Shown piece by piece: positions 12,765 to 53,788 of a stretch of 64,000 bases of DNA. The position numbers were made by a program, and so were the translations under genes. The notes under the pieces were generated by a model. The model saw nothing but the letters and a program-made list of their open reading frames with translations, had not been told where the DNA came from and searched no databases. The DNA comes from Alkalihalobacillus bogoriensis ATCC BAA-922 (GTDB taxonomy: Bacteria > Bacillota > Bacilli > Bacillales > Bacillaceae_F), in assembly GCF_000621445.1 (NCBI RefSeq), contig NZ_JHYI01000014.1, positions 124,001 to 188,000 of the forward strand, read 5' to 3'. Every line of letters starts with the position of its first letter. Position 1 is the stretch's first letter.

Positions 12765-12943
12765 CGGACATCCGTTCCCCTATTTCAAGAAAAAATAACG
12801 TTTCTTAAATTCATACGGACATTGGTTCCGTTAAATATAGAAAATAAGGGGGATTTGTTATATGTTTTGGTACAATAACGGAACAGATGTCCGTAAAGAA
12901 TTAGATAAGGCTGTTTTTCATGAAATATCGGAATAAATGTCCG
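12765..12943. repeat. R1 repeat, copy A
   Basis: This is an imperfect inverted repeat of 179 bp holding four 15-base motifs. Forward motifs start at 12765 (CGGACATCCGTTCCC) and 12816 (CGGACATTGGTTCCG). Reverse-complement motifs start at 12879 and 12929. The spacing is 51, 63 and 50 bases. It fills most of the 317-base gap between sbcC and the next gene. Confidence 0.85.
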
Positions 12944-12993
12944 ATACGACAGGTGACAAATGGCGCTGAAAAGGCAAGGATAGGGGGGTAAAA

Positions 12994-13704
12994 ATGCGAG
13001 ATGTTTCGTTTATACCGATAGATGGAAAAGAAGAGCTTGTCATTGCAACAGATTGTGCGGGTGCGATTGGTGAAAAACCTGAAGATGAAGTGAAAGTACC
13101 ATTAGAGGTTGTTAGTTATTACACAGCACGAGTGGCAATGATGGAATGTGTAAGTGTAGGGGCAACACCATTTGCGGTTGTCCTTCAAAACTTCGCTGGA
13201 GATGATTCCTGGGAGAAGATAAAAGGTGGTATTCAGCAAGCTTGTTCAGAACTCGGATTACAAAATATCAAAATAACAGGAAGTTCAGAATCGAACTTTC
13301 ATTTTAAGCAAACAGCGATAGGCATTAGCGTTTTAGGCAAAGTCGATTCAGAGGAAAAACGTATAGCGATAACTCCTCCGACAGCCCGTTTCGCCGTCAT
13401 CGGAAAACCGCTTGTTGGGAATGAAGTGATAGAACAAGCAAATGATGTTCTATCACTTTCGTTATTTCACTCTTTACTAGACTTCACGTATGAGATGATT
13501 CCTATCGGCTCAAAAGGAATAGCTTATGAGCTAAACGAGCTAATGAAAGATAACGAGTTACAAGCGACAAACATAAAATCAACACTAGCATTAACAAAGT
13601 CAGCTGGACCGGCTACATGTGCTCTCATAAGTTATCACGAAAAAATGGAACCAAAAATAAAAGAATTAGTAGGGCACTTGTTTTTTCGAATAAACTTAGT
13701 GTAG
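12994..13704 (+). CDS. PurM/ThiL-superfamily ATP-binding protein, possibly alpha-ribazole kinase-like
   Basis: The 236-residue protein resembles the AIR synthase (PurM/ThiL/HypE/SelD) superfamily, which binds ATP and phosphorylates small substrates. An acidic early segment, IATDCAGAIGEKPEDEV, and the following ARVAMMECVSVGATPFAV resemble the family's nucleotide/metal region. The later segment STLALTKSAGPATCALIS is also typical of the fold. Small stand-alone members in Firmicutes include the alpha-ribazole kinase CblS; assignment to that activity is only a guess, and no cobalamin genes are in view. A strong AGGGGGG site precedes the ATG. Its last nine bases overlap the 3' end of the oppositely oriented oxidoreductase gene. 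Confidence 0.6.
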   Translation: MRDVSFIPIDGKEELVIATDCAGAIGEKPEDEVKVPLEVVSYYTARVAMMECVSVGATPFAVVLQNFAGDDSWEKIKGGIQQACSELGLQNIKITGSSESNFHFKQTAIGISVLGKVDSEEKRIAITPPTARFAVIGKPLVGNEVIEQANDVLSLSLFHSLLDFTYEMIPIGSKGIAYELNELMKDNELQATNIKSTLALTKSAGPATCALISYHEKMEPKIKELVGHLFFRINLV

Positions 13705-14691
13705 TTTTACGATTGTACGTCCTGTATGTTTTCCATCTAATAAAAGGGCGAGAGTTTCCGGTAACTGTTCAATTGTAATTTCATGGTTAAGCTGTTTTTC
13801 TAATGAAACGGGTTTTAAATCAGTGGCTAACCGTTTCCAAATCTTTTTCCGTAATTCCATAGGACAATAAGCAGAGTCAATACCAAAAATGGTAATGCCT
13901 CTTAAAATAAAGGGGAAGACTGTTGTATGAACATCAGTTCCGGCTGTCAGTCCACTAACGGCAACAGCCCCATGTTGCTTTAAAGAGCTTACAATGGAAG
14001 CGAGTGCTTTTCCGCCAACAGCATCAACAGCAGCTGCCCATTTTTGTTTGCTTAATGGACGAGACGGATCGGTTAAGATATCATTTCTAGAAATTACTTC
14101 ATTTGCACCTATTGATAAAAGAAACTCTTTTTCTGCTTTTTTCCCAGAACTGGCTACAACATCGTACCCTCGTTTATGAAGCATCCCAATAGCAAGACTG
14201 CCTACTCCGCCAGTTGCTCCAGTTACAAGGATGGGGCCACTATCAGGGGTGATCCCATCTTGTTCAAGGCGTTCAATCGAAAGAGCAGCAGTAAAACCAG
14301 CTGTTCCATAAATCATTGCTTCTTTTAACGATAACCCATCAGGTAAGGGGACAACCCATTCTGACTTTACACGAGCATACTCACTGTACCCTCCGAAATG
14401 ACCAGTTCCTAAATCATAACCCGTGACGAGCACAGCATCCCCTTTTTTAAATTTACTGTCAGTGGAATCAACGACAATACCGGCTAAGTCAATTCCTGGT
14501 ACCATTGGGAACTTTGTTACGACTTTACCAGAAGGAGAACAGGCTAAGGCATCCTTATAATTAACACTAGAGTAGGAGACTTTGATGGTCACTTCACCTT
14601 CTGGTAAATCTGACATAGAAAATTCTTTTCGAGTAATAGAAAAGCATGAATCCGCTTTCATAACAATGAGTGCTTGAAACGTTTGTTCCAC
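13696..14691 (-). CDS. Zinc-free MDR oxidoreductase, YhdH/AcuI (acryloyl-CoA reductase) type
   Basis: The 331-residue protein belongs to the medium-chain dehydrogenase/reductase superfamily, YhdH/YhfP/AcuI branch. Its members reduce acryloyl-CoA or quinone-like substrates with NADPH. Typical features are SYSSVNYKDALACSPSGKV (about residues 40-58), PMVPGIDLAGIV, and the nucleotide-binding loop VTGATGGVGSLAIGML (about 153-168). Zinc ligands are absent, as expected for this branch. The GTG start lies seven bases after AAGGAGG. The gene is monocistronic and its end overlaps the converging PurM-like gene by nine bases. The substrate is inferred from family only. Confidence 0.85.
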   Translation of the reverse strand: MEQTFQALIVMKADSCFSITRKEFSMSDLPEGEVTIKVSYSSVNYKDALACSPSGKVVTKFPMVPGIDLAGIVVDSTDSKFKKGDAVLVTGYDLGTGHFGGYSEYARVKSEWVVPLPDGLSLKEAMIYGTAGFTAALSIERLEQDGITPDSGPILVTGATGGVGSLAIGMLHKRGYDVVASSGKKAEKEFLLSIGANEVISRNDILTDPSRPLSKQKWAAAVDAVGGKALASIVSSLKQHGAVAVSGLTAGTDVHTTVFPFILRGITIFGIDSAYCPMELRKKIWKRLATDLKPVSLEKQLNHEITIEQLPETLALLLDGKHTGRTIVKLH

Positions 14692-14949
14692 TAAAAGCCC
14701 TCCTTCTCATTCATTATATATGAGTATAGTAACAGTATATGTTTCTAGCGGTCAAAAAATATAGAATAATATGTAGGAAGCATAACAGTGACATTGCCAC
14801 TATCTGTTAATTACATTGTATGGTAACATGGATTTGAAAACAATATATAATTTTTTTGATAAAGTGAATGTTAATAAGCTCATTTCCTGTCTTTTCTTTG
14901 TCATTTTTATTATAGTATTACTATATTAAAACGGAAAGAAGATGATAGC

Positions 14950-15561: not shown

Positions 15562-15575
15562 GTTAACTTGGCTAA

Positions 15576-15755
15576 CGGACATCTGTTCAGCTATTCTATA
15601 AAAAAGTAACCTTTTTCAAAGGCTATTGGACACTGGTTCCGTTAAAGTAGTGAAATGGGGTATTTTTAATGTGCTTTTTGGTCAAATAGCGGAACGTATG
15701 TCCGATAGAAAAGAAAAAAGGGCTTGTTTCGCTGAAATAGCTGAACAGATGTCCG
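15576..15755. repeat. R1 repeat, copy B
   Basis: This 180-bp copy has motifs starting at 15576 and 15627 (forward) and 15690 and 15741 (reverse), spaced 51, 63 and 51 bases. It lies just after the DedA gene. An open frame here (15626-15868) lies mostly within the repeat and is not a gene. Its left arm matches the reversed right arm of copy E over about 40 bases. Confidence 0.85.
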
Positions 15756-15803
15756 TAACGGATGGATGGTGCGACATAAATTCAGCTTTCCTTCTTTTGA
15801 ATC

Positions 15804-15847
15804 AAAAAAAAGCAAGCAACCAACGTAATCGGTCGTTTGCTTTTTTG
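15804..15847 (+). terminator. Intrinsic terminator after the DedA gene and R1 copy B
   Basis: AAAAAAGCAA and its partner TTGCTTTTTT flank ACC-AACG-CG-GGT, ending in a T-run. Confidence 0.65.
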
Positions 15848-15942
15848 TTATTAGTCAAAATCGAATAGTGGAATAAAAGTATAATACCTCTTTTCTTAAA
15901 CCGATAATCCTAAAAGTGAGTGCTTATCAAAAGGAGTGTCAT

Positions 15943-16809: not shown

Positions 16810-16830
16810 AGTGGATTGTATTATGAATCT

Positions 16831-16870
16831 TTAAAAGCTTATTTTAAAAAAGTCGCTCCGCGTTTTTCTT
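16831..16870. repeat. R2 terminator-like module, short fragment
   Basis: AAAAGCTTATT followed by GTCGCTCCGCGTTTTTCTTA matches both ends of the R2 flanking module with the middle deleted. It lies just after the stop of the exported-protein gene and could act as its terminator. Confidence 0.6.
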
Positions 16871-17913: not shown

Positions 17914-18012
17914 ATGAGACAAGCAAGAAAAGAACCAAGTGAATCATTCAACAGTTGGGTCGGGTTTATCGGGTTAGCGATTTTGTTGTTTATGGTAAGT
18001 AAGCGGCCATGA
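17914..18012 (+). CDS. Possible 32-residue single-helix membrane peptide within R2 copy 1
   Basis: The frame begins MRQARKEPSESFNSW and continues VGFIGLAILLFMVSKRP: a basic, polar N-terminus, one hydrophobic helix of about 14 residues and a basic end. TTGGAG lies just upstream of the ATG, with short spacing. The same frame is intact in copy 3 and beheaded in copy 2. All five base differences between copies 1 and 3 change amino acids, which argues against selection on the peptide. It may be a by-product of the repeat rather than a gene. Confidence 0.3.
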   Translation: MRQARKEPSESFNSWVGFIGLAILLFMVSKRP

Positions 18013-18183
18013 AAACCGTTATCTGTGAACATTGCTAGCGTTTTGGAACGTTGGCGGACACAGGAGCTGTTAATCATAATACATCGCTAGGAATAGAGTG
18101 GCTTTTGCGTGAATAAGCGCTCCTGTGGCCGCTAAAAAACGGAAACCCGTATCATGTTCACAAATAACGGCTGCTCTGACCGC
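18004..18183. repeat. R2 core: nested inverted repeat, copy 1
   Basis: Three nested pairings are visible. GCGGCCA (18004-18010) pairs with TGACCGC (18177-18183) with one mismatch. CCGTTATCTGTGAACAT (18016-18032) pairs with 18154-18170 with one mismatch. GCGGACACAGGAGC (18054-18067) pairs with GCTCCTGTGGCCGC (18119-18132) with one mismatch. A small hairpin, ACGG-AAAC-CCGT, lies in the 3' half. The order and lengths fit a folded RNA or a cruciform. Confidence 0.75.
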
Positions 18184-18368
18184 AAAAATGAAACAAATGA
18201 GGGAGTATAAAAATTTTGGTCTAGCAGCGAAGCTTTGAAAGCTTATTCAAGAAGTGCAAAGGCTACGCACCTGCGCGTTTCACCCCAAGAAGAGCGCTTG
18301 GGGTTCACTGTCAAAAGCGGGCAGGGATCCGCACTTCGCTTGAAACGAAACACCGCTCCCGTGTTTTT

Positions 18369-23624: not shown

Positions 23625-23803
23625 CGGACATCTGTTCCACTATTTTAAGTGAAAGTAACGTTTCTCAAGTGCTATCGGACACTTGTTCTGTTATATCATA
23701 GAAGTGTCGTGTTTCCCCGCTTATTTGGCCATATAGCGGAAAGTATGTCCGTAAGAAATGTAGAAAAGGTTAAATTTTCATGAAATAAAGGAATATATGT
23801 CCG
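23625..23803. repeat. R1 repeat, copy C
   Basis: This 179-bp copy has motifs starting at 23625 and 23676 (forward) and 23737 and 23789 (reverse), spaced 51, 61 and 52 bases. It lies in the 644-base gap between the hydrolase and lacI-type genes. Arms between the motifs are partly complementary (CTATTTTAAGTGAAAGTAAC against the segment before the last motif). Confidence 0.85.
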
Positions 23804-23926
23804 AAACGAGAGGTGTCGCAGAAGATCCATTCCTATATATCTATCTCTTTTACAAAAATCTAACATTTTATTCACAAAAAGAGATGAAGACACTAACATG
23901 TGGGGAAAGGTGAAAAGTCTTTTATA

Positions 23927-23950
23927 CCAAGGGTTACTCCTTGGTTCTTT
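23927..23950 (+). terminator. Hairpin with T-rich tail upstream of the LacI-type gene
   Basis: CCAAGG-GTTACT-CCTTGG is followed by TTCTTT. It has terminator form, but no obvious gene ends just before it. It may insulate the lacI region from transcription through R1 copy C. Confidence 0.45.
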
Positions 23951-23970
23951 ATCGTATCTTTAATTATTAG

Positions 23971-23984
23971 TTAAAACGGTTTGA
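23971..23984. promoter_or_regulatory. LacI-family operator 1 (candidate)
   Basis: TTAAAACGGTTTGA has a central CG and near-symmetric arms. It resembles the second, perfect site at 24103-24116. Confidence 0.5.
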
Positions 23985-24033
23985 TTAAATTTATAAAGTA
24001 ATAAAGTAGGAGGAACCTTTATAAATCAATGAT

Positions 24034-24062
24034 TTGCGCTAACTATTAAATAGATTTATTAA
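24034..24062 (+). promoter_or_regulatory. Possible promoter of the LacI-type gene
   Basis: TTGCGC and TATTAA are separated by 17 bases. The -35 box is mediocre. It lies between the two LacI-type palindromes, about 80 bases before the start codon. Confidence 0.4.
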
Positions 24063-24102
24063 TGATTAACATGAAATTTACGCTTAGTTTATTAGTAATT
24101 AA

Positions 24103-24116
24103 TAAAACCGGTTTAA
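24103..24116. promoter_or_regulatory. LacI-family operator 2 (candidate)
   Basis: TAAAACCGGTTTAA is almost perfectly symmetric around CCGG, with the central CG usual for LacI-family sites. It lies 27 bases before the start of the regulator gene, a position suited to autorepression of the whole operon. Confidence 0.65.
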
Positions 24117-24143
24117 TATCAATTATGGTAAAGGGTGATGAAA

Positions 24144-25166
24144 ATGACAAATATCAATGATGTTGCCAAAGCAGCAGGAGTATCCAAAAGCACAGTTTCA
24201 AATGTATTTAGTCAAAAGCGACCAATTAGTAAGGAGGTGAGGGAACGTGTTTTAGCGGTAGCGAAAGAGCTTCACTATAAACCAAATTACTTAGCTCGAA
24301 GTTTAGCGATAAAAGAAACGAAGATTATCGGTTTAAATATGGTTGGTGAAAAAATTAAGTTTAGCCAATTTCATCTTTCATTTATAAATGGCGTGTTAAG
24401 TGAATGTTACCATCAAGGCTATCGATTGCTTGTAAATACTTTACCTGACCATTATCGAGAACAAGTTATTCATGTTGCGTCAAATCCTACAGATGGAGAA
24501 ATCATCTTAGCACCGTCAATGAATGATAATCGGATAATTGAAAGTGTGGAAAAGAATACACCAGTCGTTGTTGTTGGAATCCCGCCAACGCCATATGAAA
24601 ACCAACTTTCTTATGTAGACAACAATAATTTTCCTGCCGCTGTGCAAGTAACTGACTACTTAATTTCGTTAGGGCATCGCAATTTTTTATTTCTTAATGC
24701 TCCTAAAATACGGACTGTTAGTCAAGAACGAGAAATAGGTCATGTTGCCTCGTTAGACAAAAATGGTGTCCCGGTTAATCAGCGTTTTATTATTCCACGT
24801 AATGAAAAATTGACTTCAGTTGAGTTTGGATATGTAACGGCAAAAAAAATGCTAGTTGAAAATAAAGAGCTGACGGCCGTGATTACTGATAATGACAAAG
24901 TTGCCTTAGGGGTATATCGAGCTTGTGCAGAATTAGGGATTCAAATACCAAAGCAATTGTCGATTATAGCTTTTAGTGACGGGTCTGTATATGCATCTGA
25001 ATTTTCTCCACCGTTAACAAATATGAAATTGAATGGAGAAAAATTAGGGAGGGAAGCCGCTAAACTACTAATTGAACAAATCAAGTCTTCTGAACAAATT
25101 GTAAAAAGAGTCATTATTCCAATTGAATTAGAAGAAAGAGGATCAACTTCAAACATTCAAACATGA
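24144..25166 (+). CDS. LacI-family transcriptional regulator of the ABC operon
   Basis: The ATG at 24144 (340 residues) is preferred, because AAAGGG lies eight bases upstream and the protein then begins MTNINDVAKAAGVSKSTVSN, the standard LacI helix-turn-helix. GTG 24135 and ATG 24138 are also in frame. A hinge helix (YKPNYLARSLAIKE) and a periplasmic-binding-protein-like sensor domain follow. Members usually bind sugars or sugar phosphates. No terminator separates it from the downstream ABC transporter genes, and two palindromes with central CG stand upstream. Co-transcription and autorepression of the operon are therefore likely. The inducer is not known. Confidence 0.87.
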   Translation: MTNINDVAKAAGVSKSTVSNVFSQKRPISKEVRERVLAVAKELHYKPNYLARSLAIKETKIIGLNMVGEKIKFSQFHLSFINGVLSECYHQGYRLLVNTLPDHYREQVIHVASNPTDGEIILAPSMNDNRIIESVEKNTPVVVVGIPPTPYENQLSYVDNNNFPAAVQVTDYLISLGHRNFLFLNAPKIRTVSQEREIGHVASLDKNGVPVNQRFIIPRNEKLTSVEFGYVTAKKMLVENKELTAVITDNDKVALGVYRACAELGIQIPKQLSIIAFSDGSVYASEFSPPLTNMKLNGEKLGREAAKLLIEQIKSSEQIVKRVIIPIELEERGSTSNIQT

Positions 25167-25264
25167 AGCTGACATACATATGAACTTACTTATCATCATG
25201 ACATTTACTTTTTCATTCACGTAAGGAAATGTATCGTCACGAATTATTAATTAGGAGTGGGAAC

Positions 25265-27238
25265 ATGTTTAAGAAAAAGTTAGTTATCATGATGATTGTA
25301 CTTTTTATCTCTATGATAGTTGTTGGTTGTCAATCGAAAACGGAAGAAACGACGATAGAGCCGAAGAATGAATTAGAACCGGTCGAAGTAGAGCAGTTAG
25401 CAGTTGGATCTGAACTAAAAGATGCACCAATGCTCCAGGAGCTTGTTAGTAAAGGTGATTTACCAGCAGTAGAAGATCGTATGCCAATTCTTGATGATAT
25501 TATGGTCGAACCGGTTCTTGAAGAAATCGGGCAATACGGAGGAGAATGGAATTACCCGTGGGCTGGTCCGGATGATAAGTGGGGTATAGGTAAAATTACC
25601 GAAGAAGCATTATTTCGATTTACAGAAGATGGGAATGGTGTCGAGCCAAATGTTGCTAAAGGATATGATGTGAACGAAGAAAGAACGGAATACACGATTT
25701 ATTTACGTGAAGGAATGAAATGGTCGGATGGTGAGCCGTTTACTGCCGATGATGTTATTTTCTACTGGGAGCATATGCTCATTCCAGAGACATTTGGAAA
25801 AGCACTTTATGATTGCTATTACTCTGTCAATCCTGAAACAGGAGAAAAAGTTCGTTCCGATGTAGTGAAAGTGGATGATTATACAGTTAAAGTCATTCAC
25901 AAATATCCAAGTGTACTTTTCTTAGAGCGTTTAGCGATTGATAATAAATGGTTTTTTGCTCCAGCTCATTATTATGAAAATATTCTTCCTGAATTTTTAG
26001 GTGAAGAAAAAGCACTTGAAGTTGCGAAAGAATATGGATACAACGACTTAGATACATTTGGAGAATGGACTGGATATTATTTCTGGTTAATTCCTGACCG
26101 CCCAACACTTAGAGCATGGGTAGGAACAAATGACCCACATAGTGACCGCTATATTATGGAACGAAATCCGTATTACTTTAAAACGGATGCAGAAGGAAAC
26201 CAATTACCTTATATCGATCGAATTGTTTTAAACAAAATGCAAGATACTAGCCACTATTTAATGGAAACTCTTGCTGGTAATGTTGATGTGTTTACGTTTG
26301 GTTTTACAGATTTTACAGTATTAAAAGAAAATGAGCAAAAAGGAGATTACCGTGTTTTACAATGGACACCTACAGCATGGTCAAGTACAGGTTTACAGTT
26401 AAATCAAACGATTGATGATCCGAAATTACGTGAACTTTTTCAAGATAAACGTTTCCGTGAAGCTTTATCCGTCGCTGTTGACCGTGTCGAATTATCGGAA
26501 ATTTTAACGAGTGGATTAGGTGAACCACAACAAGCTTCCGTTTCGGAAGGGGTGCCAAACTATCAAGAAGGCTGGAAAGATCAGTGGAACGACTATAATG
26601 TTGACCGTGCTAACGAGTTACTTGATGACATCGGTTTGAAATGGGATGACAAGAAGGAATTCCGTACGTTTGCAGATGGCTCAGAACTAAATCTTGTGAT
26701 TTATCAAGAAAGCCGTGGAGAGACTCAAGTTGGGACATTACAAGAATTATTAAAGATGTATTATGAAAAAATCGGAATTAAAACAGATATTAAGATTGCT
26801 GACCAAGGATTGTTTTTTGATTTGAAATATGACAATAAAATCCCAGCAACAACCCAAAACATCAGTGTTGTAAAAGTAGCGTATCGTCCAGATGAACTGG
26901 TGCCGTTACGTGTGATTACGCCTTGGTTTGGTCACTATGGTTTATACAATTCTTCTAATGGAGAAGAAGGGGTAAAACCAGAAGGTGATGTTGCCAAACT
27001 AGTGGAATATTGGAACAATTTAACAGCCTCAAAAACGTCAGAGGAAGTTGATAAGTGGAGTGATGAAATCGTAAAACTCCATAAAGAAAACCAATGGGTA
27101 ATTGGGTATACGGGTCCAACTCCGTCGTTAGTTGTTGCGAAAAATAATGTTCGAAACGTTCCAGATGGTCTTATTGATAGTGATGAATTTAGAGGGTTAG
27201 GACATGCCAAACCAGTCCAGTTCTTTTTTAAACAATAA
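25265..27238 (+). CDS. ABC transporter substrate-binding lipoprotein (SBP_bac_5), probably oligosaccharide
   Basis: The ATG at 25265 follows AGGAGTGGG, giving 657 residues. A signal peptide ends in a lipobox-like VVGC, so the protein should be lipid-anchored outside the membrane. The mature part is a family 5 extracellular solute-binding protein (cluster C, the dipeptide/oligopeptide fold). The segment APMLQELVSKGDLPAVEDRMP followed by EEIGQYGGEW is characteristic of the subgroup that binds oligosaccharides such as alpha-galactosides or beta-glucans in other bacteria. The LacI neighbour also points to sugar. It heads the transporter genes and is followed by a strong hairpin that may raise its message level above that of the permeases. 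Confidence 0.85.
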   Translation: MFKKKLVIMMIVLFISMIVVGCQSKTEETTIEPKNELEPVEVEQLAVGSELKDAPMLQELVSKGDLPAVEDRMPILDDIMVEPVLEEIGQYGGEWNYPWAGPDDKWGIGKITEEALFRFTEDGNGVEPNVAKGYDVNEERTEYTIYLREGMKWSDGEPFTADDVIFYWEHMLIPETFGKALYDCYYSVNPETGEKVRSDVVKVDDYTVKVIHKYPSVLFLERLAIDNKWFFAPAHYYENILPEFLGEEKALEVAKEYGYNDLDTFGEWTGYYFWLIPDRPTLRAWVGTNDPHSDRYIMERNPYYFKTDAEGNQLPYIDRIVLNKMQDTSHYLMETLAGNVDVFTFGFTDFTVLKENEQKGDYRVLQWTPTAWSSTGLQLNQTIDDPKLRELFQDKRFREALSVAVDRVELSEILTSGLGEPQQASVSEGVPNYQEGWKDQWNDYNVDRANELLDDIGLKWDDKKEFRTFADGSELNLVIYQESRGETQVGTLQELLKMYYEKIGIKTDIKIADQGLFFDLKYDNKIPATTQNISVVKVAYRPDELVPLRVITPWFGHYGLYNSSNGEEGVKPEGDVAKLVEYWNNLTASKTSEEVDKWSDEIVKLHKENQWVIGYTGPTPSLVVAKNNVRNVPDGLIDSDEFRGLGHAKPVQFFFKQ

Positions 27239-27246
27239 TAACTAAT

Positions 27247-27269
27247 AGACAGGGGGATTCCCCCTGTCT
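27247..27269 (+). promoter_or_regulatory. Intercistronic hairpin between binding-protein and permease genes
   Basis: AGACAGGGGG-ATT-CCCCCTGTCT is a perfect ten-base-pair stem without a T-run. Its position fits a transcript-stabilising or partial-attenuation hairpin that favours expression of the binding protein. Confidence 0.75.
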
Positions 27270-27298
27270 CTATCCTACTATGTGTGGAAGGAGAAATT

Positions 27299-28297
27299 AT
27301 GGTTCGTTACATCGTTCGTAGAGTTCTATTAATGATACCGGTAGTTTTTGCAATTTCGGTTATTGTCTTTTTTATCATTCAATTGCCACCAGGGGATTTC
27401 GTCAGTAGTTATGCTTTACAAATGGAGCAAGATGGTGAGGTGTTAAACGATGATGCATTGGACCGATTGCGTGAATCCTATGGGTTAGACCAAGCATGGT
27501 ATATACAATATGGGAAATGGATGTGGGGGATTGTAACAGAAGGTGATTTTGGATATTCATTTAGTTATAATCGTCCTGTTTTAGACGTGATTCAGCAGCA
27601 TATGGGGATGACGCTAATTGTATCGATAGCCTCTTTGCTTTTTACATATTTTGTTGCGATTCCGATTGGGATTTATAGTGCATTAAAGCAATATTCCTTT
27701 GGTGATTATGTGTTTACAACAATCGGCTTTTTAGGGATGGCCACACCCAATTTTTTATTAGCCATTATTTTAATGTACTTATCTTTTACTTTTTTTGGTG
27801 ACCCAATGCTAGGAATACAGTCAAAAGAATTTGTTGACCAGCCTTGGAGTGTGGCAAGAGTAATAGATTTATTAAAGCATCTCATTATTCCGATCGTTGT
27901 CATTGGTACTGCAAATACATGTGAACTTATTCGTGTAATGCGAGGACAAATGCTCGATGAGATGACAAAACCGAATGTATTAACCGCTCGTTCAAAAGGA
28001 TTATCAGAAGGTCGGATTATTCGTAAATATCCAACAAGAGCTGCACTAAATCCGATTATTAGTACGATTGGTTGGTCTTTAACGTCTATTTTTACAGGAG
28101 CGACTATCACGGCTATCGTGTTGAATCTTCCGACGCAAGGACCGGTTATGCATAAAGCATTATTAGGTCAAGACATGTATTTAGCCGGGACATGGTTGTT
28201 TTTTATGGCTGTTTGTACCGTAATTGGAACATTAATTTCTGATATTTTACTTGCTTGGCTAGATCCAAGAATCCGAATGGATAGAAAAGGAATGTAA
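27299..28297 (+). CDS. ABC transporter permease, DppB/OppB type
   Basis: The ATG at 27299 follows GGAAGGAG, giving 332 residues. An in-frame GTG at 27284 lies inside the ribosome site. It starts with the typical N-terminal helix (MVRYIVRRVLLMIPVVFAIS) and then a loop with the usual ESYGLDQAWYIQYGKW. The remaining helices belong to the BPD permease domain, and the EAA-like cytoplasmic loop is TARSKGLSEGRIIRKYPTRAALNP. It should pair with the next gene to form the membrane channel of the importer. No frameshift or truncation is seen. Confidence 0.92.
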   Translation: MVRYIVRRVLLMIPVVFAISVIVFFIIQLPPGDFVSSYALQMEQDGEVLNDDALDRLRESYGLDQAWYIQYGKWMWGIVTEGDFGYSFSYNRPVLDVIQQHMGMTLIVSIASLLFTYFVAIPIGIYSALKQYSFGDYVFTTIGFLGMATPNFLLAIILMYLSFTFFGDPMLGIQSKEFVDQPWSVARVIDLLKHLIIPIVVIGTANTCELIRVMRGQMLDEMTKPNVLTARSKGLSEGRIIRKYPTRAALNPIISTIGWSLTSIFTGATITAIVLNLPTQGPVMHKALLGQDMYLAGTWLFFMAVCTVIGTLISDILLAWLDPRIRMDRKGM

Positions 28298-28300
28298 TCA

Positions 28301-29443
28301 ATGGAAATACAAGTGAAGAAAGAGAAAGTGAATATATGGAAAAAGAAAAAGGTAAGTGAAGAATCTTATTATATGGCTTCGCAATGGACGTTAATGGCAC
28401 GAAAATTGCGGAAACATAAATTAGCACGAATAAGTTTACTCATATTGTTCGTCTTATATATGTCTGCACTTTTGGCACAATTTATTGCGCCATATCATTT
28501 ACAAAGCTATAACAGCGAATATGTCAATGCCCCACCAACAACAATTCAATGGATAGATGAGGATGGCAAATTTCATATTCGTCCCTTTGTTTATGGATTA
28601 ACTACATCAAGAGACCCTGATACATTACGTAAAATCGTAGTTGCTGACACTGACGTTAAATACCCAATTCGATTTTTTGTTGAAGGGGAACCGTATCGGT
28701 TTCTTGGATTATTTGAAACCAATATCCGCTTGTTTGGAGTGGAACAGCCCGGACAGTTATTCCTTTTTGGAACGGACGGTACAGGTCGCGACTTATTTTC
28801 TAGAATTGTGCTTGGGAGTCAAATCTCATTATCGATTCCGTTAATCGGTGTCAGTATAAGTTTTGTGTTAGGGATTATTATCGGAGGGGTTTCCGGATAC
28901 TTTGGTGGTGTAGTCGATTCAGTTATTCAAAGGTTAATCGAAATCATTCGCTCTTTTCCGACTTTGCCGTTATGGATGGCCTTATCAGCGGCAATTCCAC
29001 CAAGAGTACCAGTCGTGCAAATGTTTTTGTACATTACGATTATCATGGCTTTTTTAGAATGGACCGGGTTAGCTCGTGTTGTTCGAAGTAAATTTGTTTC
29101 ATTAAAAAATGAAGATTATATCATGGCAGCCAAAATATCTGGAGTGTCGACGATGAAAATTATTGCTGTGCATCTAGTTCCTGGTTTTATTAGTTATTTA
29201 GTCGTTGCGGCCACGTTGGCAATCCCAGGCATGATTATTGGTGAGACGGCGTTAAGCTTTTTAGGGTTAGGTATACAAGCACCAGCAACAAGTTGGGGAG
29301 TCCTTCTACAAGAAGCTCAGCAAATTGAAAATGTTGCCTTATATCCATGGAAACTGATTCCTTTAGGTTTTGTTATCTTGACAGTATTAGCATTTAACTT
29401 TTTAGGTGATGGATTACGGGATGCGGCTGACCCTTATAAATAG
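28301..29443 (+). CDS. ABC transporter permease, DppC/OppC type
   Basis: This 380-residue permease starts three bases after the previous stop. Its N-terminal tail of about 45 residues is soluble and highly charged. After the first helix it has a long extracytoplasmic segment (about residues 68-150) which ends in LFLFGTDGTGRDLFSRIVLGS, the family signature. The EAA loop reads DYIMAAKISGVSTMKIIAVHLVPG, and the C-terminus FNFLGDGLRDAADPYK is typical. The extracytoplasmic segment is larger than in dipeptide transporters such as DppC, as is usual in members that work with sugar-binding proteins of this fold. It forms the channel with the preceding permease. Confidence 0.92.
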   Translation: MEIQVKKEKVNIWKKKKVSEESYYMASQWTLMARKLRKHKLARISLLILFVLYMSALLAQFIAPYHLQSYNSEYVNAPPTTIQWIDEDGKFHIRPFVYGLTTSRDPDTLRKIVVADTDVKYPIRFFVEGEPYRFLGLFETNIRLFGVEQPGQLFLFGTDGTGRDLFSRIVLGSQISLSIPLIGVSISFVLGIIIGGVSGYFGGVVDSVIQRLIEIIRSFPTLPLWMALSAAIPPRVPVVQMFLYITIIMAFLEWTGLARVVRSKFVSLKNEDYIMAAKISGVSTMKIIAVHLVPGFISYLVVAATLAIPGMIIGETALSFLGLGIQAPATSWGVLLQEAQQIENVALYPWKLIPLGFVILTVLAFNFLGDGLRDAADPYK

Positions 29444-29471
29444 GATGATATGAAAGAAAAGGAGTTCTAGT

Positions 29472-30506
29472 ATGTCAGAACAAGCGATTCTCTCGAAAAA
29501 GTTTTTAGAAGTGAATGGACTACATATCCATTTTCCGACCGACATGGGAATGCTGAAGGCGGTGAATGGGATTGATTTTATTGTTGAACGAGGAAAGACG
29601 TTAGGGATTGTAGGAGAATCAGGTTGTGGAAAAAGTGTCACTAGTAAGGCGCTTATCGGACTAAATCCTAAGGAGTTTCAAACAACAGGCGAAATCTTTC
29701 TTTACGATGAAGAGGAAAATAAAACAAATTTATTAGATTATCATCCAACGAGTAAACAAATGAGAATGATTCGTGGGAAAAAAATATCAATGATTTTTCA
29801 AGAACCAATGACCGCATTTTCACCCCTTTATACAATTGGTAATCAAATTATGGAAGTGATTTTACTTCATCAAACAAAAAATAAAAAAGAAGCAAAACAA
29901 CTTGCAATCAACATGCTAGAAAAGGTCGGGATATCAAATGCCGAAGGACGGTTTCATCAATACCCACATGAATTTTCCGGTGGAATGCGCCAGCGTGCCA
30001 TGATTGCAATGGCCCTCTCATGTAATCCGGAGTTATTAATTGCCGATGAACCGACGACCGCATTAGATGTCACGATTCAAGCCCAAGTGCTTGAATTAAT
30101 GAAAAAGCTTCAAGCTGATTTTAAAATGTCAATTTTGTTTATTACTCATGATTTAGGAATCGTCGCTGAAATGTGTGATGATGTCGCGGTCATGTACTTA
30201 GGACAAATTGTGGAAAAAGCACCGGTGAGAGATATATTTAAAAACCCAAAACATCCGTATACAAAAGGCTTACTTCATTCGATTCCAACTCTCGGACAAA
30301 AAAATGAAAGACTAGCTTCTATAGAAGGTACGGTTCCATTAGCTATAAATATGCCTGAAATGTGTGGATTTTATGACCGTTGTTCAGAGAGAATAGAAGG
30401 AGTTTGTAATCAGGCGTATCCTGCACCGATTTCAATGACAGAAAATCATTCTGTTCGATGTTTTTTATATGATGGAAAAACGGAGGGGAGGGATGGAAAT
30501 GGATAA
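29472..30506 (+). CDS. ABC transporter ATPase, DppD/OppD type
   Basis: The 344-residue ATPase carries Walker A GESGCGKS (about residues 54-61), a Q-loop in [13 protein letters not shown], the ABC signature FSGGMRQR and Walker [15 protein letters not shown]-terminal oligopeptide-transporter domain with a cysteine cluster ([22 protein letters not shown]) may hold the Fe-S cluster known in this family. AGGAG precedes the ATG. It works as a heterodimer with the next gene's product on the cytoplasmic face of the permeases. Confidence 0.93.
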
Positions 30507-31509
30507 TATCATATTAGAAATTAATCATCTAACAAAAGAATTTAAAGGGAAAAAGAATGAAACCGTTCAAGCTGTTTCCGATGTTTCCTTTTCTGTAAAG
30601 CGGGGTGAAACCTTTAGTATTGTTGGAGAGTCAGGCTGTGGAAAAACAACATTAGGACGCTGTATTGTTAGAGGTGTAGATGCAACGTCAGGGGAAGTCC
30701 ATATCGTTGATAAACACAATAAAAAAATCGACTTTCTGCAAGTGAAGAAAAAAGACTATCAGCGACTTAGAAAAGAAATTCAAATGATTTTTCAAGACCC
30801 TTATTCGTCATTAAATCCACGGATGACGGTTTATGACATAATTAGTGAGCCTTTACGGGCGACTACTAAGCTAAAGAAAACAGAAATCGACCAAAGAGTA
30901 ATCGAAATTGCTGAGAAGACAGGGTTAAATGTTAGTTACTTAAAAAGGTACCCACATTCTTTTTCAGGTGGGCAACGGCAAAGAATTGGCATTGCACGTG
31001 CACTAATTACAAATCCACAAGTTATTGTATGTGATGAAGCGGTTTCGGCGCTTGATGTTTCCATTCAAGCACAAATTATAAATCTATTAAAAGATTTACA
31101 AAAAGAATTCCAGATGACATATTTATTTATTTCCCATGATTTATCAATCGTGGAATACTTATCTGACCGTGTAGCAGTCATGTATTTAGGAAAAATAATT
31201 GAGTTAGCCCCTACACAAGAATTGTTTTCCAAACCAAGACATCCGTATACGGAAGCATTATTATCTGCCGTACCTCGGCCAAATCCGGATATTAGATTGG
31301 AGAGAATTGTATTACAGGGGGAAGTTCCTAATCCATCAAATCGTCCGCAAGGCTGTCATTTTCATCCTCGGTGTGCGTATAAAACAGAGAAATGTGAACA
31401 AACGGAACCAGAATGGGAAGAAATAGAAGAAGGCCATTTTGTTGCTTGTCATTATGCTACTGAATTAAACCTGAATGGCATTCATAACCTGACTGCCATG
31501 AATCAATAG
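30499..31509 (+). CDS. ABC transporter ATPase, DppF/OppF type
   Basis: I start this at ATG 30499 (336 residues, [15 protein letters not shown]), six bases after GGAGGGGAGGG. Earlier in-frame starts at 30469 and 30493 give only an odd charged extension. The motifs are Walker A GESGCGKT, Q-loop MIFQDPYSSLNPRM, signature FSGGQRQR, Walker B VIVCDEAVSALD and a C-terminal domain with CHFHPRCAYKTEKC. It overlaps the preceding ATPase gene by eight bases, so translation is probably coupled. It completes a five-protein importer: binding protein, two permeases and two ATPases. Confidence 0.93.
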   Translation: MDNIILEINHLTKEFKGKKNETVQAVSDVSFSVKRGETFSIVGESGCGKTTLGRCIVRGVDATSGEVHIVDKHNKKIDFLQVKKKDYQRLRKEIQMIFQDPYSSLNPRMTVYDIISEPLRATTKLKKTEIDQRVIEIAEKTGLNVSYLKRYPHSFSGGQRQRIGIARALITNPQVIVCDEAVSALDVSIQAQIINLLKDLQKEFQMTYLFISHDLSIVEYLSDRVAVMYLGKIIELAPTQELFSKPRHPYTEALLSAVPRPNPDIRLERIVLQGEVPNPSNRPQGCHFHPRCAYKTEKCEQTEPEWEEIEEGHFVACHYATELNLNGIHNLTAMNQ

Positions 31510-31530
31510 GAGAAAAGAGAGGCGTTAAAT

Positions 31531-32085
31531 ATGGAAACAAAGCAGTTGATTATCTTTCTTGATTGTGGCGATACAATTATAAATGAAGAAACCGAAATAC
31601 GTAACGAGGAAGAGGTAGTCATACAAGCTGAATTAATCCCTGGTGCAGGAGAAATGGTAAAAACTTTAGCAGAACGTGGGTATCGACTGGCACTTGTAGC
31701 AGATGGTTTAGCTCAGTCATTTAAGAATATGTTAACGGACCATCAACTATATGATTACTTTGAAGTGATGATTTACTCTGAAAATATGAAAACGAGAAAA
31801 CCAGACGAACGAATGTTTAAAGCAGCACTCGGAGCGATGAATCTCAGTGAAACGGATTGTGAGCGTATTATGATGGTTGGAAATAATTTAGCTCGTGATA
31901 TAAAAGGTGCCAATGCGATGGGGATGCTGAGCGTTTTTTTACAATGGTCACCACGTTATCCGAAAACCCCAGCAGAGGAGGCAGAAACACCAGATTATAC
32001 AATTTCTACACCGTTGGAATTACTTGAGATTGTTGAACAAGTAAACGAGGGATTAACTCGTAAGTCACAACATCCTGTTCAATAA
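31531..32085 (+). CDS. HAD-superfamily hydrolase in the ABC operon
   Basis: The 184-residue protein has the HAD Rossmann-like fold. Motif I is FLDCGDTI with nucleophile D11. The acid/base position two residues later is glycine (G13) instead of the usual aspartate. Motif II is ALVADG, motif III uses the lysine in TRKPDERMFKAAL, and motif IV is MVGNNLARDIKGAN. The missing second aspartate means that ordinary phosphatase activity is uncertain, although some HAD subgroups with such variants exist. It lies 21 bases after the ATPase gene and precedes the MATE gene, which implies a role with the transported compound. Confidence 0.82.
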   Translation: METKQLIIFLDCGDTIINEETEIRNEEEVVIQAELIPGAGEMVKTLAERGYRLALVADGLAQSFKNMLTDHQLYDYFEVMIYSENMKTRKPDERMFKAALGAMNLSETDCERIMMVGNNLARDIKGANAMGMLSVFLQWSPRYPKTPAEEAETPDYTISTPLELLEIVEQVNEGLTRKSQHPVQ

Positions 32086-32122
32086 AGTCTCATCCATAAA
32101 TATAGGAGTGGGAGCTAAAATT

Positions 32123-33460
32123 ATGAATTTTAACCGGGAACTAAAGATACTAGTTATCCCATTTGTACTCCATATGTTGATAAGTAACTCTTTTTCTTTT
32201 ATCGATACATTGATGATTGCTGGACTAGGTGAGGTAGCTGTAGCAGCAATGGCAGCGGCAGGTCAATTTACATTTGTTCTCGGTATGATTTTATCAGCGT
32301 CATATGGGATTACCGCTTTTATCACTCAGTTTTATGGTAAAGGTGACATGGAGAATGTACATAAAGCATTAGGGTTAATGTTAGTAACGGCTTTCGTTGT
32401 TTCGACGATGGCCGCAATGTTCATTTATTTTTTTAAACAGTCGTTACTATCGATTTTTTTCACTAATGACCAAGCGATATGGTATGGGATTGAGTATGTT
32501 TCGATTATCGTCTTTGTCTTTGTGTTAAATAGTGTGAAGGATGCATATGGCCATACATTAGGCGCTATAGGGAAAGTGAAAGTGAATGTCATCATCGGTT
32601 TGATTGGGATGGCGATAAATACGGGATTAAATTATTTACTCATTTATGGGCATTGGGGATTTCCGAGACTGGAAGTGAAAGGAGCAGCAATTGCTACATT
32701 AGTTTCTACACTCATTACGATTATAGTATTACTTGGATTTATATATGGTGGAAAGTATTATATAAATGCTCCTTTTCGTACAATGTTTGCGTTTGATTGG
32801 AGATTTGTCAAAAAAGTGTATCGGACAACATTACCGATCGTTCTCCATGAAGGCATATGGTCGGTTGGAAATATGATGTATGCGGTCGCTTTTGGCTATC
32901 TTGGTGTTGCAGCACTCGCGGTTTATCAATTAGCACGGACATTTAATAATTATTTTATGATGGGGATCTTTGGTTTTTCCTATGCTGCAAAAGTCATGAT
33001 TGGAAAAAAATTAAGTTTAGAAGACCCAACTGAAGCGATCGAAAATGCAAAAAAGTTTACTAGATTATCGATTTACTCAGCGATAACGGTAAGTTTGATT
33101 ATTATCATTGCGAATCCATACATTGTATCGTTATTTTCAAATTTGAGTGAAGAAGTCCAGGCAACCTTTCGTAATGTTCTTTATATTCAAGCGGTTGTGT
33201 TGCCTGTGTACTTTTTAAATAATATTTGGATTGTTGGTTTGTTTCGTACTGGTGGAGATAATGTATATTCAATGAAACTTGTTATGTTTACAACATGGTT
33301 TATAGCGCTACCGTTAGTTTATTTTGGAGCAGTTGTCATGAAGTGGCCGATCGAACTCGTTTATATTTTCTTTGCTTTAGAAGAAGTGTCAAAAGCTTGT
33401 ATCGGTTATTTTCGTTTTCGGTCAAACAAGTGGGCAAACAATTTAGTGAGTGAAATATAA
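32123..33460 (+). CDS. MATE-family efflux transporter in the ABC operon
   Basis: The ATG at 32123 is placed by GGGAG eight bases upstream, giving 445 residues. An in-frame GTG at 32108 lies within the ribosome site. Twelve hydrophobic segments in two halves, with LVIPFVLHMLISNSFSFIDTLMIAGLG and GAAIATLVSTLITIIVLLG, mark it as a MATE (multidrug and toxic compound extrusion) antiporter. These proteins export cationic or other small molecules using Na+ or H+. Its place behind an importer and a HAD enzyme in one operon is unusual. It may export a by-product or be the exchange route for the imported compound; this is inference. Confidence 0.87.
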   Translation: MNFNRELKILVIPFVLHMLISNSFSFIDTLMIAGLGEVAVAAMAAAGQFTFVLGMILSASYGITAFITQFYGKGDMENVHKALGLMLVTAFVVSTMAAMFIYFFKQSLLSIFFTNDQAIWYGIEYVSIIVFVFVLNSVKDAYGHTLGAIGKVKVNVIIGLIGMAINTGLNYLLIYGHWGFPRLEVKGAAIATLVSTLITIIVLLGFIYGGKYYINAPFRTMFAFDWRFVKKVYRTTLPIVLHEGIWSVGNMMYAVAFGYLGVAALAVYQLARTFNNYFMMGIFGFSYAAKVMIGKKLSLEDPTEAIENAKKFTRLSIYSAITVSLIIIIANPYIVSLFSNLSEEVQATFRNVLYIQAVVLPVYFLNNIWIVGLFRTGGDNVYSMKLVMFTTWFIALPLVYFGAVVMKWPIELVYIFFALEEVSKACIGYFRFRSNKWANNLVSEI

Positions 33461-33491
33461 TGTCAAAGATTAATAGTAAGAGGTGAGAAGG

Positions 33492-34151: not shown

Positions 34152-34179
34152 TTGAATGTCTTTCTTTTAATAATGTTAG

Positions 34180-34256
34180 CGGACATTTACCTCATTATCT
34201 TTTAGTCATCTAATTGAAAGGGAAGAAGACATACGAGAGCAGATAAGAGCTGTCCG
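34180..34256. repeat. R1 repeat, half copy F (inner motif pair only)
   Basis: A forward motif at 34180 (CGGACATTTACCTCA) and a degenerate reverse motif ending TGTCCG at 34242-34256 are 62 bases apart. This equals the inner-pair spacing of full R1 copies. The outer motifs are absent. It lies between converging genes and could also act as a weak stem-loop. Confidence 0.5.
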
Positions 34257-34267
34257 CATATTATGTA

Positions 34268-34735
34268 TTACACTAAATGTGGATTATATTCCATCGGCTC
34301 TATACAATGGGTATAGCCATGTTTTTTATAAAACGAAATACTATCATCGCTAGGCCAAACCATAATAAATTCATAATTAGATTGTTTTGACCAATCATTA
34401 ATCGTAGAAAGAAGCTTACCGCCGATCCCTTTATTCCGGTATTCTTTAAGCGTGTAAACATTCGTCATATATGCGAATGGAAATGTAATTCTCCCAGGAC
34501 GCGGCACTTTTCGAATAAGCTCAATATAAATATGTGACAAAATTTTATTTTGTTCCTCAGCGACCCAAATAAACCACTGATTTCCTTGCAGTGCCTCTTC
34601 TAAAAACTGACGACATTCCGTTTCAAATTCTAGGAATGAAGCAATTTTTTTACTCTCATCATGTTCAATCGTAAAATCCCAACGCATTTTGATTAACTGA
34701 GGGATGTCCTCTTTTTTTGCAAGCCTAATCATCAT
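34268..34735 (-). CDS. GNAT-family N-acetyltransferase
   Basis: The ATG at 34735 is chosen because AGGGGTG lies six bases upstream; a GTG at 34744 is part of that site. The 155-residue protein is a GNAT enzyme: MIRLAKKEDIPQLIKMRW forms the first strand and helix, and TNVYTLKEYRNKGIGGKLLS carries the acetyl-CoA motif A (R-x-x-G-x-G). SISFYKKHGYTHCIEPM is the usual end. These enzymes move an acetyl group from acetyl-CoA to an amine on a small molecule or protein. The substrate is unknown. It is a single gene converging on the ABC operon. Confidence 0.88.
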   Translation of the reverse strand: MMIRLAKKEDIPQLIKMRWDFTIEHDESKKIASFLEFETECRQFLEEALQGNQWFIWVAEEQNKILSHIYIELIRKVPRPGRITFPFAYMTNVYTLKEYRNKGIGGKLLSTINDWSKQSNYEFIMVWPSDDSISFYKKHGYTHCIEPMEYNPHLV

Positions 34736-35683: not shown

Positions 35684-35714
35684 GGCCTGAAAAGTGCAGA
35701 ATTCAGGCTTTTTT
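35684..35714 (+). terminator. Terminator of the DUF2087 regulator gene
   Basis: GCCTGAA and TTCAGGC enclose ten or so bases and are followed by TTTTTTT. A-rich sequence precedes the stem. Confidence 0.85.
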
Positions 35715-35721
35715 TGAAAGA

Positions 35722-36187
35722 CAAGAAAGCATAAAAATTTTGATGCGGCAGTGAAGCTTTGAAAGCTTATTCTAGAAGAGTGAAGGCTGCGCACTTCGCT
35801 TGAATGAAAAGACCCAAGTGAATCATTCAACACTTGGGTAGGGTTTATCGCGTTAGCGATTTTGTTGTTTATGGCAAGTAAGCGGCCATGAAAACCTTTA
35901 TCTGTGAACATTGCTAGCGTTTTGGAATGTTGGTGGACACAGGAGCCGTTAATCAAAATATATCGCAAGGAATAGAGTTGCTTTTGCATGAATAAGCGCT
36001 CCTGTGGCCGCTAAAAAACGGAAACCCGTATCATGTTCACAAATAACGGCTGCTCTGACCGCAAAAATGAGACAAATGAGGGAGTATAAAAATTTTGGTC
36101 TAGTAGCGAAGCATTGAAAGTTTATTCTAGAAAAGCGGGAAGGGCTCCGCTCTTCGCTTGAAACGAAAAGACGCTCCCGCGTTTTCT
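35722..36187. repeat. R2 repeat, copy 2 (internal deletion)
   Basis: This copy keeps the left module start, the 180-bp core (35882-36062) and the right module (about 36083-36187). The segment from the second half of the left module to the front of the 32-codon frame is missing. The junction lies at GAAAAGAC (about 35806-35813), a sequence that occurs at both edges of the missing part in copy 3. The right end abuts the stop of the minus-strand glnQ-type gene. Confidence 0.82.
35811..35891 (+). pseudogene. Beheaded copy of the R2 32-codon frame
   Basis: Codons 7-32 of the R2 frame remain (DPSESFNTWVGFIALAILLF and six more residues), but the first codons are deleted. An in-frame TGA lies just upstream, so no start is available. 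Confidence 0.6.
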
Positions 36188-38593: not shown

Positions 38594-38770
38594 CGGACTT
38601 ATTTTCCTCTATTTACTTAAACAAGGCTTGTTTCAATTCTTACAGACATCTGTTCCGTTATTAGCTCGACAACATCGACAAAACCTTCTTTTTATACGAA
38701 GTAACGGAACTGATGACTGATAGCTTTTGAAAGTCTCCGCGTTTAGTATAAATAGCGGAATCAAGGTCCG
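38594..38770. repeat. R1 repeat, copy D
   Basis: This 177-bp copy has motifs starting at 38594 and 38643 (forward) and 38705 and 38756 (reverse), spaced 49, 62 and 51 bases. It is the most diverged full copy (first motif CGGACTTATTTTCCT). It occupies the gap between two minus-strand genes. Confidence 0.8.
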
Positions 38771-49943: not shown

Positions 49944-50042
49944 TAAAAGTGCTTAGAACACAATGGTTCAATGGAAAGTAAGAGTGTAATGTGTTAATCT
50001 ATTACAAAAATGGTAGGTCTATTACCGGTGTTGGAGGTTTCT

Positions 50043-52201: not shown

Positions 52202-53381
52202 TTCTCTCATTCTTTTAATTGAAATAACGTTCCTCTATCTCGTTTTTCTCCCCTTTTATATGACAGCAGGTACGGTTCCCCCTGTTTTTCCGCTTCTAAT
52301 TATATTGGTATGTGCTTATTATTTAAATCATGTTCTATTAAAAAAATGGAATAGTAAAAAGGTTGGTTTCATCACCATTCCAGTTATAGCCGTACTTGCT
52401 TTTATAGTGGGTTTTTATTATATAGTAGCAATCCTATTAGCTGGATATTTATTTTGGAGAATTGTTGCGACTATAGAAGGAGAAACAGAGGCATGGCATC
52501 TATTTTTCACGACGCTAATTGTTGGTGTCGTGTTCTATTTACATTTTTTTTCGCTAGAAAATAATTATTTGTTTTTATTACTCGTTGTCATTCAATTTTT
52601 GCTTGTCATTTCTTTGAAATCTTTTCAATCGCCAGTAAGTGTAGAGTTTACTCATAGAGACCGACATTCTTTTATCGGCTGGAATTTTAGTGTTCTTTTT
52701 ATTCTCGTCGTTATAACAGCGATAGGCTGGGCCGTTTATGCTTTTTTTGTTCATATTATTTTGTATGTCATGCAAGTCATTGTATTTTTGTATACATTAT
52801 TATCAATCCCAGTGTTTTACATTATAGAATTATTTGTTAGAGAAAACGAAGTCATGGAAGAAGGGGAGAGAGCAGAATCTTTACAAGAAGGGCTAGAAGA
52901 TGATGCTTCACAATTATTAGAAATTCTCCCACATTTCGGTTGGGTGGAGATGGTTGGATCACTTCTGTTGTGGGGAATTTTTCTTACCATTGCTGTCTCT
53001 TTCACTCTGAGGGTACTTAAGAAGAGACGAGCAGTTCGCTTTCAATCGGAAAATACAATAGTATATGATGGAGATAATGATGTAGAAGAACTTAATAACA
53101 CCTCATCGTTTTGGCGACGAAAAAAACCGAAACATGAAGTGAGAAAGTTATTACTTGGGCTAGAATTAACAGCTAGAAAAAAGGGAATCGGAAGAAAGCA
53201 AGGACAAACGCTTGAAGAATGGCTTTTGCATCTACCCTTACATGATGATGAGCATAAGCGGGAAATTATTAACACGTATACGAAAGTGAGATATGGTCAT
53301 AAACATGTTTCAAAGGAAGAACAAAAACAATATGCTCAACATATTCTTGCGGTAAAACAACAGTGGAAAGACATATTGTAA
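52179..53381 (+). CDS. Multi-pass membrane protein with C-terminal DUF4129-like domain
   Basis: I start this at ATG 52179, after GGGGGTGG, giving 400 residues. About six membrane segments fill the first 215 residues, with one more near 265-285. The C-terminal soluble part (about 325-400) resembles DUF4129: EVRKLLLGLELTARKKGIGR, QTLEEWLL and YTKVRYGHKHV. In many Bacillus the third gene of this operon is a transglutaminase-fold protein with a DUF4129 end. Here the transglutaminase domain (Cys-His-Asp) is not visible, so only the membrane part and DUF4129 remain. It may be the anchor for the MoxR/DUF58 pair. Confidence 0.78.
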   Translation: MKWRNVSSSLILLIEITFLYLVFLPFYMTAGTVPPVFPLLIILVCAYYLNHVLLKKWNSKKVGFITIPVIAVLAFIVGFYYIVAILLAGYLFWRIVATIEGETEAWHLFFTTLIVGVVFYLHFFSLENNYLFLLLVVIQFLLVISLKSFQSPVSVEFTHRDRHSFIGWNFSVLFILVVITAIGWAVYAFFVHIILYVMQVIVFLYTLLSIPVFYIIELFVRENEVMEEGERAESLQEGLEDDASQLLEILPHFGWVEMVGSLLLWGIFLTIAVSFTLRVLKKRRAVRFQSENTIVYDGDNDVEELNNTSSFWRRKKPKHEVRKLLLGLELTARKKGIGRKQGQTLEEWLLHLPLHDDEHKREIINTYTKVRYGHKHVSKEEQKQYAQHILAVKQQWKDIL

Positions 53382-53391
53382 TGGAGGAATT

Positions 53392-53583
53392 ATGTATATA
53401 CTGCTTATATTTGTATTTGCTGTTTGTTTATTTTCATTGATTTTTACATTATCATTAACAAAAACAGAAGATACAGAATACACGGGAAAAAAGAGTTTGA
53501 ACAATCAGTTATGGATTTATGTTATTCTACTGCCTATTATTGTTATTGTCCTTTTGCTCGTCTGTTGGCTTTTTATTTTTTGA
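53392..53583 (+). CDS. Small two-helix membrane protein (63 residues), end of the MoxR operon
   Basis: TGGAGGAATT stands directly before the ATG, an excellent ribosome site, and the frame starts ten bases after the DUF4129 gene. The protein has two hydrophobic segments, MYILLIFVFAVCLFSLIFTL and WIYVILLPIIVIVLLLVCWL, with a polar linker of about 20 residues. No family is recognised. Position and ribosome site make it a real gene, probably a small subunit of the membrane complex made by this operon. Confidence 0.7.
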   Translation: MYILLIFVFAVCLFSLIFTLSLTKTEDTEYTGKKSLNNQLWIYVILLPIIVIVLLLVCWLFIF

Positions 53584-53610
53584 TAAGAAGGTTTTCACAT
53601 AAGGAGCGTT

Positions 53611-53788
53611 CGGACATGTGTTCCGTTAATATAGGGAATTTCAATGTTTGTTCAACCGAACGGACATCTGTTCCTTTATATGATCGAAAAGATGCTGATT
53701 TCTTTATGAAATCAGTGAATAACGGAACACACGTCCGATAGCTTTCGGAAAGTGGCTATTTTTTATAGAATAGCGGAACGTATGTCCG
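53611..53788. repeat. R1 repeat, copy E
   Basis: This 178-bp copy has motifs starting at 53611 and 53661 (forward) and 53723 and 53774 (reverse), spaced 50, 62 and 51 bases. The reversed right arm is nearly the same as the left arm of copy B over about 40 bases, while its own left arm is diverged. Confidence 0.85.

Follow-up and report, generated by a model that had tools for sequence, protein, structure and literature searches.

R1, an intergenic element of four helically phased sites in Alkalihalobacillus bogoriensis, is a candidate operator array for a DNA-wrapping or DNA-bridging protein

What purpose might be served in a bacterial chromosome by an intergenic element that repeats four short motifs at fixed spacing? 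The question is raised by a stretch of 64,000 nucleotides from Alkalihalobacillus bogoriensis ATCC BAA-922 (contig NZ_JHYI01000014.1, positions 124,001 to 188,000; C9:124001-188000 of the 5.0-Mb assembly, G000), hereafter referred to as the window, which carries five copies of such an element, R1. An earlier note on this DNA had left three options for R1, namely a nucleoid- or regulator-binding array, a structured RNA, or an element resembling a miniature inverted-repeat transposable element (MITE). The binding array has emerged as the best supported of the three, on the grounds of 21-bp sites, helical phasing, phased A/T tracts and purifying selection in place. From the observed architecture, phase, constraint and distribution we suggest, with a probability of roughly 0.55, that R1 is an operator array for a putative lineage-specific protein that would wrap or bridge DNA, mostly at gene 3' ends. 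R1 is a real, abundant and, as far as our literature search shows, previously undescribed element: the motif sequence returned no relevant match and, as the earlier note had anticipated, no fitting family was found.

At up to 3 mismatches the G000 assembly holds 949 matches to the R1 motif (477 + 472), as compared with 38 (10 + 28) for a reversed-pattern control, and full four-motif elements numbered 152 in 2.15 Mb of real DNA versus none in Markov-shuffled sequence. The sister species, G006, has 882 matches at up to 2 mismatches. Its complete chromosome yielded 91 full elements in 75 samples of 20 kb, which, weighted by 0.5-Mb bins, corresponds to about 250 full elements per genome, nearly all of them intergenic, with a higher density in the origin-proximal half (position 1 being dnaA). 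A single motif match was detected in the congener G005 and a handful, at chance level, in other members of the family, while in the genus Gracilibacillus more than one match was present in 3 of 17 genomes. In the class sampled, R1 was not found beyond the order, nor was it found, at the thresholds used, in phages, plasmids and viral contigs, and 400 kb of the array-free G005 contained no different motif of equal geometry.

The anatomy of R1 was derived from 124 non-redundant elements. The 15-base motifs originally described do lie at the places given for them, but the unit that is conserved is a 21-bp site, CGGACAT-NNN-TTCCG-Y-TATTT, whose 3-bp core is nearly free; four such sites, in the order ++-- and with dyad symmetry, make up an element of about 179 bp. 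Within the site, fixation reaches about 90-100% at positions 2-6 and 11-14 and positions 8-9 vary almost freely; G or A occupies position 10, and C or T position 16, with C preferred in the outer sites and T in the inner ones, symmetrically on both sides. Each site comprises two half-sites, one helical turn apart, that flank the core; an interpretation of the motif as LexA-like was rejected, positions 8-10 being nearly free. The consensus is dyad-symmetric and its conservation stops about 3 bp beyond the outer motifs, and the motifs are better kept than the linkers, as had been claimed. The first interval measures 51 bp in 114 of the 124 elements, the central one 62 or 63 bp in 116 and the last 51 bp in 96; fixed spacing thus holds to within a few bp, and the random spacing that would have spoken against a defined element was not observed. 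Nearly all copies keep to 51/62/51 bp with a tolerance of ±1. Such intervals correspond to 5, 6 and 5 helical turns at about 10.2-10.3 bp per turn, which bears out the proposal that the outer spacing is close to five helical turns. The same geometry is found in other genera (genomes G233, G258, G271, G160, G075, G154 and G213), and G279 and G205 likewise bear arrays. In tandem arrays the distance from unit to unit is free (periods of about 203, 214, 223, 230, 264 and 283 bp), and the rigid spacing therefore belongs to the unit. Long tandem arrays are present in G233 at C1:527638-528987 and 1590420-1591339, their units repeating about every 222 and 264 bp.

Except for tandem, orthologous and a few neighbouring copies, which are more alike, the linkers of paralogous copies are 35-45% identical, a value equal to that of column-shuffled controls. 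AAA/TTT tracts occur within them at positions ~20, 28, 39, 71, 79 and 90, with almost none in between, and follow a 10.2-bp period (R2 0.25 versus a maximum of 0.17 in a rotated-linker null). G+C content oscillates between about 0.02 and 0.65 over the linkers, with a fitted period of 10.2 bp (bootstrap 10.15-10.2), the R2 being 0.42 at 10.15 bp, 0.41 at 10.2 bp and 0.01 at 10.75 bp, and its troughs fall on the face where the minor groove of the site cores lies. Among 121 single elements, 70% are individually phased at p<0.05, and the G+C profile recurs in nine other genomes (r=0.79, 17 non-redundant elements), the 10.2-bp oscillation being present in all genera that were sampled. Since A/T-rich minor grooves face inward in wrapped DNA, we read the phased linkers as a probable signature of DNA wrapping.

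Phased A/T with G+C in anti-phase over 180 bp, arranged symmetrically at gene 3' ends and in convergent pairs, might be expected of a strong DNA gyrase site similar to BIME-2, the bacterial interspersed mosaic elements (BIMEs) that serve as sites for gyrase in E. coli (PMC6379681). BIMEs, to which gyrase and further proteins bind (PMC6379681, PMC2817692), and the repetitive extragenic palindromic (REP) sequences of E. coli and other bacteria, which have associated tyrosine transposases, resemble R1 in being high-copy, intergenic, palindromic and patchy among relatives. By analogy, gyrase-bound BIME-2 would be the system that works most like R1, and the gyrase binding motif, of about 130 bp, is likewise symmetric with a periodic A/T-G/C phase (PMC6379681). 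However, in the gyrase pattern as published the period is 10.75 bp and, away from the centre of cleavage, there is no strong sequence motif (PMC6379681), whereas the R1 fit is nil at 10.75 bp and strong at 10.2 bp, and the sequence-specific sites of R1, to which the gyrase pattern has nothing comparable, each hold some ten near-invariant contact bases that suggest specific readout. Moreover, gyrase is universal and R1 is not, and a gyrase site appears to us an improbable explanation. Nor does R1 fit a REP, a sequence of 20-40 bp with a GTAG/CGTC tag (PMC3733652): it spans 179 bp with four fixed sites, and its consensus contains no palindrome of that length bearing either tag. The Y1 transposase (PF01797) does not track R1 either, the 99% complete genome G271 having arrays and no match and array-free genomes having matches.

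Where R1 stands bears on a further explanation, that of an operator array through which a classical transcription regulator controls the adjacent genes. The sites do resemble a dimer operator (two half-sites, CGGA-N7-TCCG), yet R1 is located mostly at gene 3' ends and avoids promoter regions. Among 93 elements, 37 lie between convergent, 53 between co-directional and 3 between divergent genes, against 126, 378 and 160, respectively, for background intergenic regions of at least 100 bp, so that R1 avoids divergent regions, which make up 24% of intergenic regions and hold 3/93 elements, and favours convergent ones (40% versus 19%). The adjacent genes, furthermore, are unrelated to one another, and no common theme was found among the neighbours of R1. 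We give the classical regulator very little credence.

Could R1 instead act as a transcribed RNA, in the form of a long hairpin, a terminator or a stability element? As first described, the whole element is a long imperfect palindrome; its predicted folding is strong (z -8.9 for copy E of the window) and its motifs 1 and 4 show a weak excess of matching (z 3.7). Motifs 2 and 3, which would form the inner stem, nevertheless match below chance (z -2.1), and the paired fraction elsewhere is that of independent columns, so that the palindrome is genuine while its pairing is no better than independent columns would give. There was no consistent covariation and no match to an Rfam family, and a 10.2-bp DNA phase would be meaningless for RNA. 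A structured RNA, one of the three options originally left open, is thus highly improbable.

Evidence for use of the sites where they stand comes from 21 aligned orthologous pairs of G000 and G006, in which divergence amounts to 2.1% at contact bases, 11.9% in the core, 9.6% in linkers and 5.8% in the intergenic flank. Because the elements had been ascertained in G000, contact-base losses were counted in G006 only, where 7 of 813 bases were lost; half the linker divergence would have predicted 39 losses (p=2e-10). The sites are therefore under purifying selection at fixed chromosomal positions, which argues that they do something in place. Positions in A/T tracts also diverge less than other linker positions (7.3% versus 11.4%, p=0.006), and it appears that the A/T phase, too, is kept by selection at fixed chromosomal positions.

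R1 has moved between or within lineages, and it might be a MITE, with two transposase-binding sites per end, that owed its dispersal to an autonomous transposon since lost or in decay. Like bacterial MITEs, bcr1 of the Bacillus cereus group included, R1 is short, non-coding, multi-copy and symmetric by inverted repeats, and its discrete ends, its patchy occurrence among species and its avoidance of promoters are in keeping with such a past. Recent copies in G258 move within a larger composite and, in G233, homology runs past the R1 ends in several copies. Also in G233, a 1.5-unit array interrupts an IS200-like transposase gene of which an intact relative lies elsewhere, and the interrupted element is present twice, within a 1.17-kb repeat at 97% identity (L199 1343-2493, L200 1341-2499). 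This insertion is not delimited by the R1 ends, however: its left junction lies outside R1, its right junction within a second unit and any duplication is of about 2 bp at most, and it is therefore not like a clean R1 transposition. A site common to G233 and G000 was left out of account, as chance alone will place R1 in a fair number of convergent gene pairs. In G258 (L140 9696-10400, L141 8063-8606), R1 was seen inside a larger palindromic composite beside a GC-rich 'CTCCTGCGGG...' type repeat.

Set against the definition of a MITE (PMC10969869), R1 has the symmetric ends but showed neither target duplications nor clean pairs of empty and occupied sites. Whatever offset or length was tried, flank identity in 119 + 27 elements remained close to that of permuted pairs. 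Nearly all evaluable R1 sites are common to G000 and G006, and among some 40 orthologous sites none was cleanly empty, degenerate, 51-bp-deleted or tandem-duplicated copies being all that was seen; changes between the sister species include 51-bp deletions and tandem duplications. In the stretches of genome read there was no autonomous element and no recurrent neighbouring gene, and no ++ ... -- pair flanked an open reading frame (ORF). Among the G000 and G006 elements sampled there were no dispersed near-identical copies apart from one exchanged tract, of 240 bp, common to two G000 copies 9.7 kb apart, that begins 58 bp outside one element and stops inside its fourth unit; a second repeat family of the window, by contrast, is plainly recent. 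Unlike MITEs, R1 has no partner transposon in the stretches read and combines old, saturated linkers with conserved sites, and the retention of contact bases after fixation is unexpected for a MITE. The MITE-like option proposed for R1 is thus supported for its origin only, in view of the discrete ends, the patchy spread and the insertion in a transposase gene of another species; as a full account of R1 we consider it unlikely. Earlier stem-loop families of Bacillus (PMC2267715) differ from R1 in size and copy number, the two features compared.

The explanation that we favour, an operator array for a DNA-wrapping or DNA-bridging protein, would involve a putative oligomeric DNA-binding protein, acquired by some lineages, that binds all four sites simultaneously, wrapping the 180 bp or drawing them into a tight loop, with the minor grooves of the A/T tracts turned inward. 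The product would be a nucleosome-like, two-fold symmetric particle, and about 250 such particles, denser towards the replication origin, might help to organise the nucleoid or serve as barriers to supercoiling. The array would first have spread as a non-autonomous mobile element, or as part of one, and would persist now because binding matters. Three parts of this account are inferred: that there is such a protein, that it wraps the DNA, and that the particles contribute to nucleoid organisation. RemA and AsnC/LrpC octamers of Bacillus have been proposed to wrap DNA around a ring (PMC8481266), and multi-site, nucleosome-like wrapping is a proposal in their case as in that of R1. The blocks that RemA contacts, however, are 7 bp long, weakly conserved, separated by 3-bp gaps and located upstream of promoters, whereas R1 offers four strong 21-bp sites 51 bp apart and away from promoters.

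Several points weigh against the favoured explanation. No candidate binding protein was found, and the case for wrapping comes from sequence periodicity alone. Spacing shifts by 1-2 bp between orthologues in 12 of 63 intervals, and the conservation of A/T tracts could be partly inherited. An origin by mobility is likely, and some features of the architecture may go back to selection that acted while R1 was spreading. Arrays are present in only 1 of 36 genomes of the genus of G233, and the congener G005 is without a single one; as these relatives live without arrays, the function cannot be essential. A bolder formulation, in which R1 would mark unrecognised bacterial nucleosome-like particles, with a site-specific, lineage-acquired protein wrapping about 180 bp at some 250 programmed places that were installed by a mobile repeat and kept by selection, we regard as tentative and rather doubtful. 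Interspersed repeats of bacteria are for the most part interpreted as mobile DNA in decay or as RNA hairpins; R1 has a measurable physical design, with four specific sites, fixed helical phase and bendable linkers, in addition to measurable constraint in place. It may offer a direct route to a chromosome-architecture protein, with a 179-bp copy as bait, and illustrates a way in which a binding network spanning the genome, and wholly absent from close relatives, might be seeded by a mobile repeat.

In the window, the coordinates of the five copies, with their 20 motif positions and their spacings, proved exact on rechecking. Copy A (12765-12943, spacing 51/63/50) has its sites at 12765-12779(+), 12816-12830(+), 12879-12893(-) and 12929-12943(-); copy B (15576-15755, spacing 51/63/51) at 15576-15590(+), 15627-15641(+), 15690-15704(-) and 15741-15755(-); and copy D (38594-38770, spacing 49/62/51) at 38594-38608(+), 38643-38657(+), 38705-38719(-) and 38756-38770(-). 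For each of these three the corresponding site is occupied in G006. Copy C (23625-23803, spacing 51/61/52), with sites at 23625-23639(+), 23676-23690(+), 23737-23751(-) and 23789-23803(-), has a synteny break at its right end, the 10.4 kb downstream being missing from G006. Copy E (53611-53788, spacing 50/62/51), with sites at 53611-53625(+), 53661-53675(+), 53723-53737(-) and 53774-53788(-), lies in a convergent gene pair, and its right end, too, is a synteny break with respect to G006. All copies had been placed between genes, which is correct for A to D, while copy E overlaps a dubious ORF of 105 aa (53424-53741). The match of the right arm of copy E to the left arm of copy B, from which exchange between copies had been suggested, is real and not special, since the right arm of copy C equals it against the left arm of copy A; exchange itself is supported by the separate pair with the 240-bp tract described above.

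The block absent from G006 next to copy C (23816-34268, 10.4 kb), whose first gene encodes a LacI-type regulator, starts within about 13 bp of the right end of that copy. The second intergenic repeat family of the window (17983-18270, 35709-36185 and 54116-54359) has three near-identical copies there and one copy in G006; it is recently dispersed, in contrast to the old R1 copies, and has arms that are in part inverted repeats (54136-54165 and 54287-54316). The right end of the window holds the start of a 16S rRNA gene (63893-64000; Rfam RF00177).

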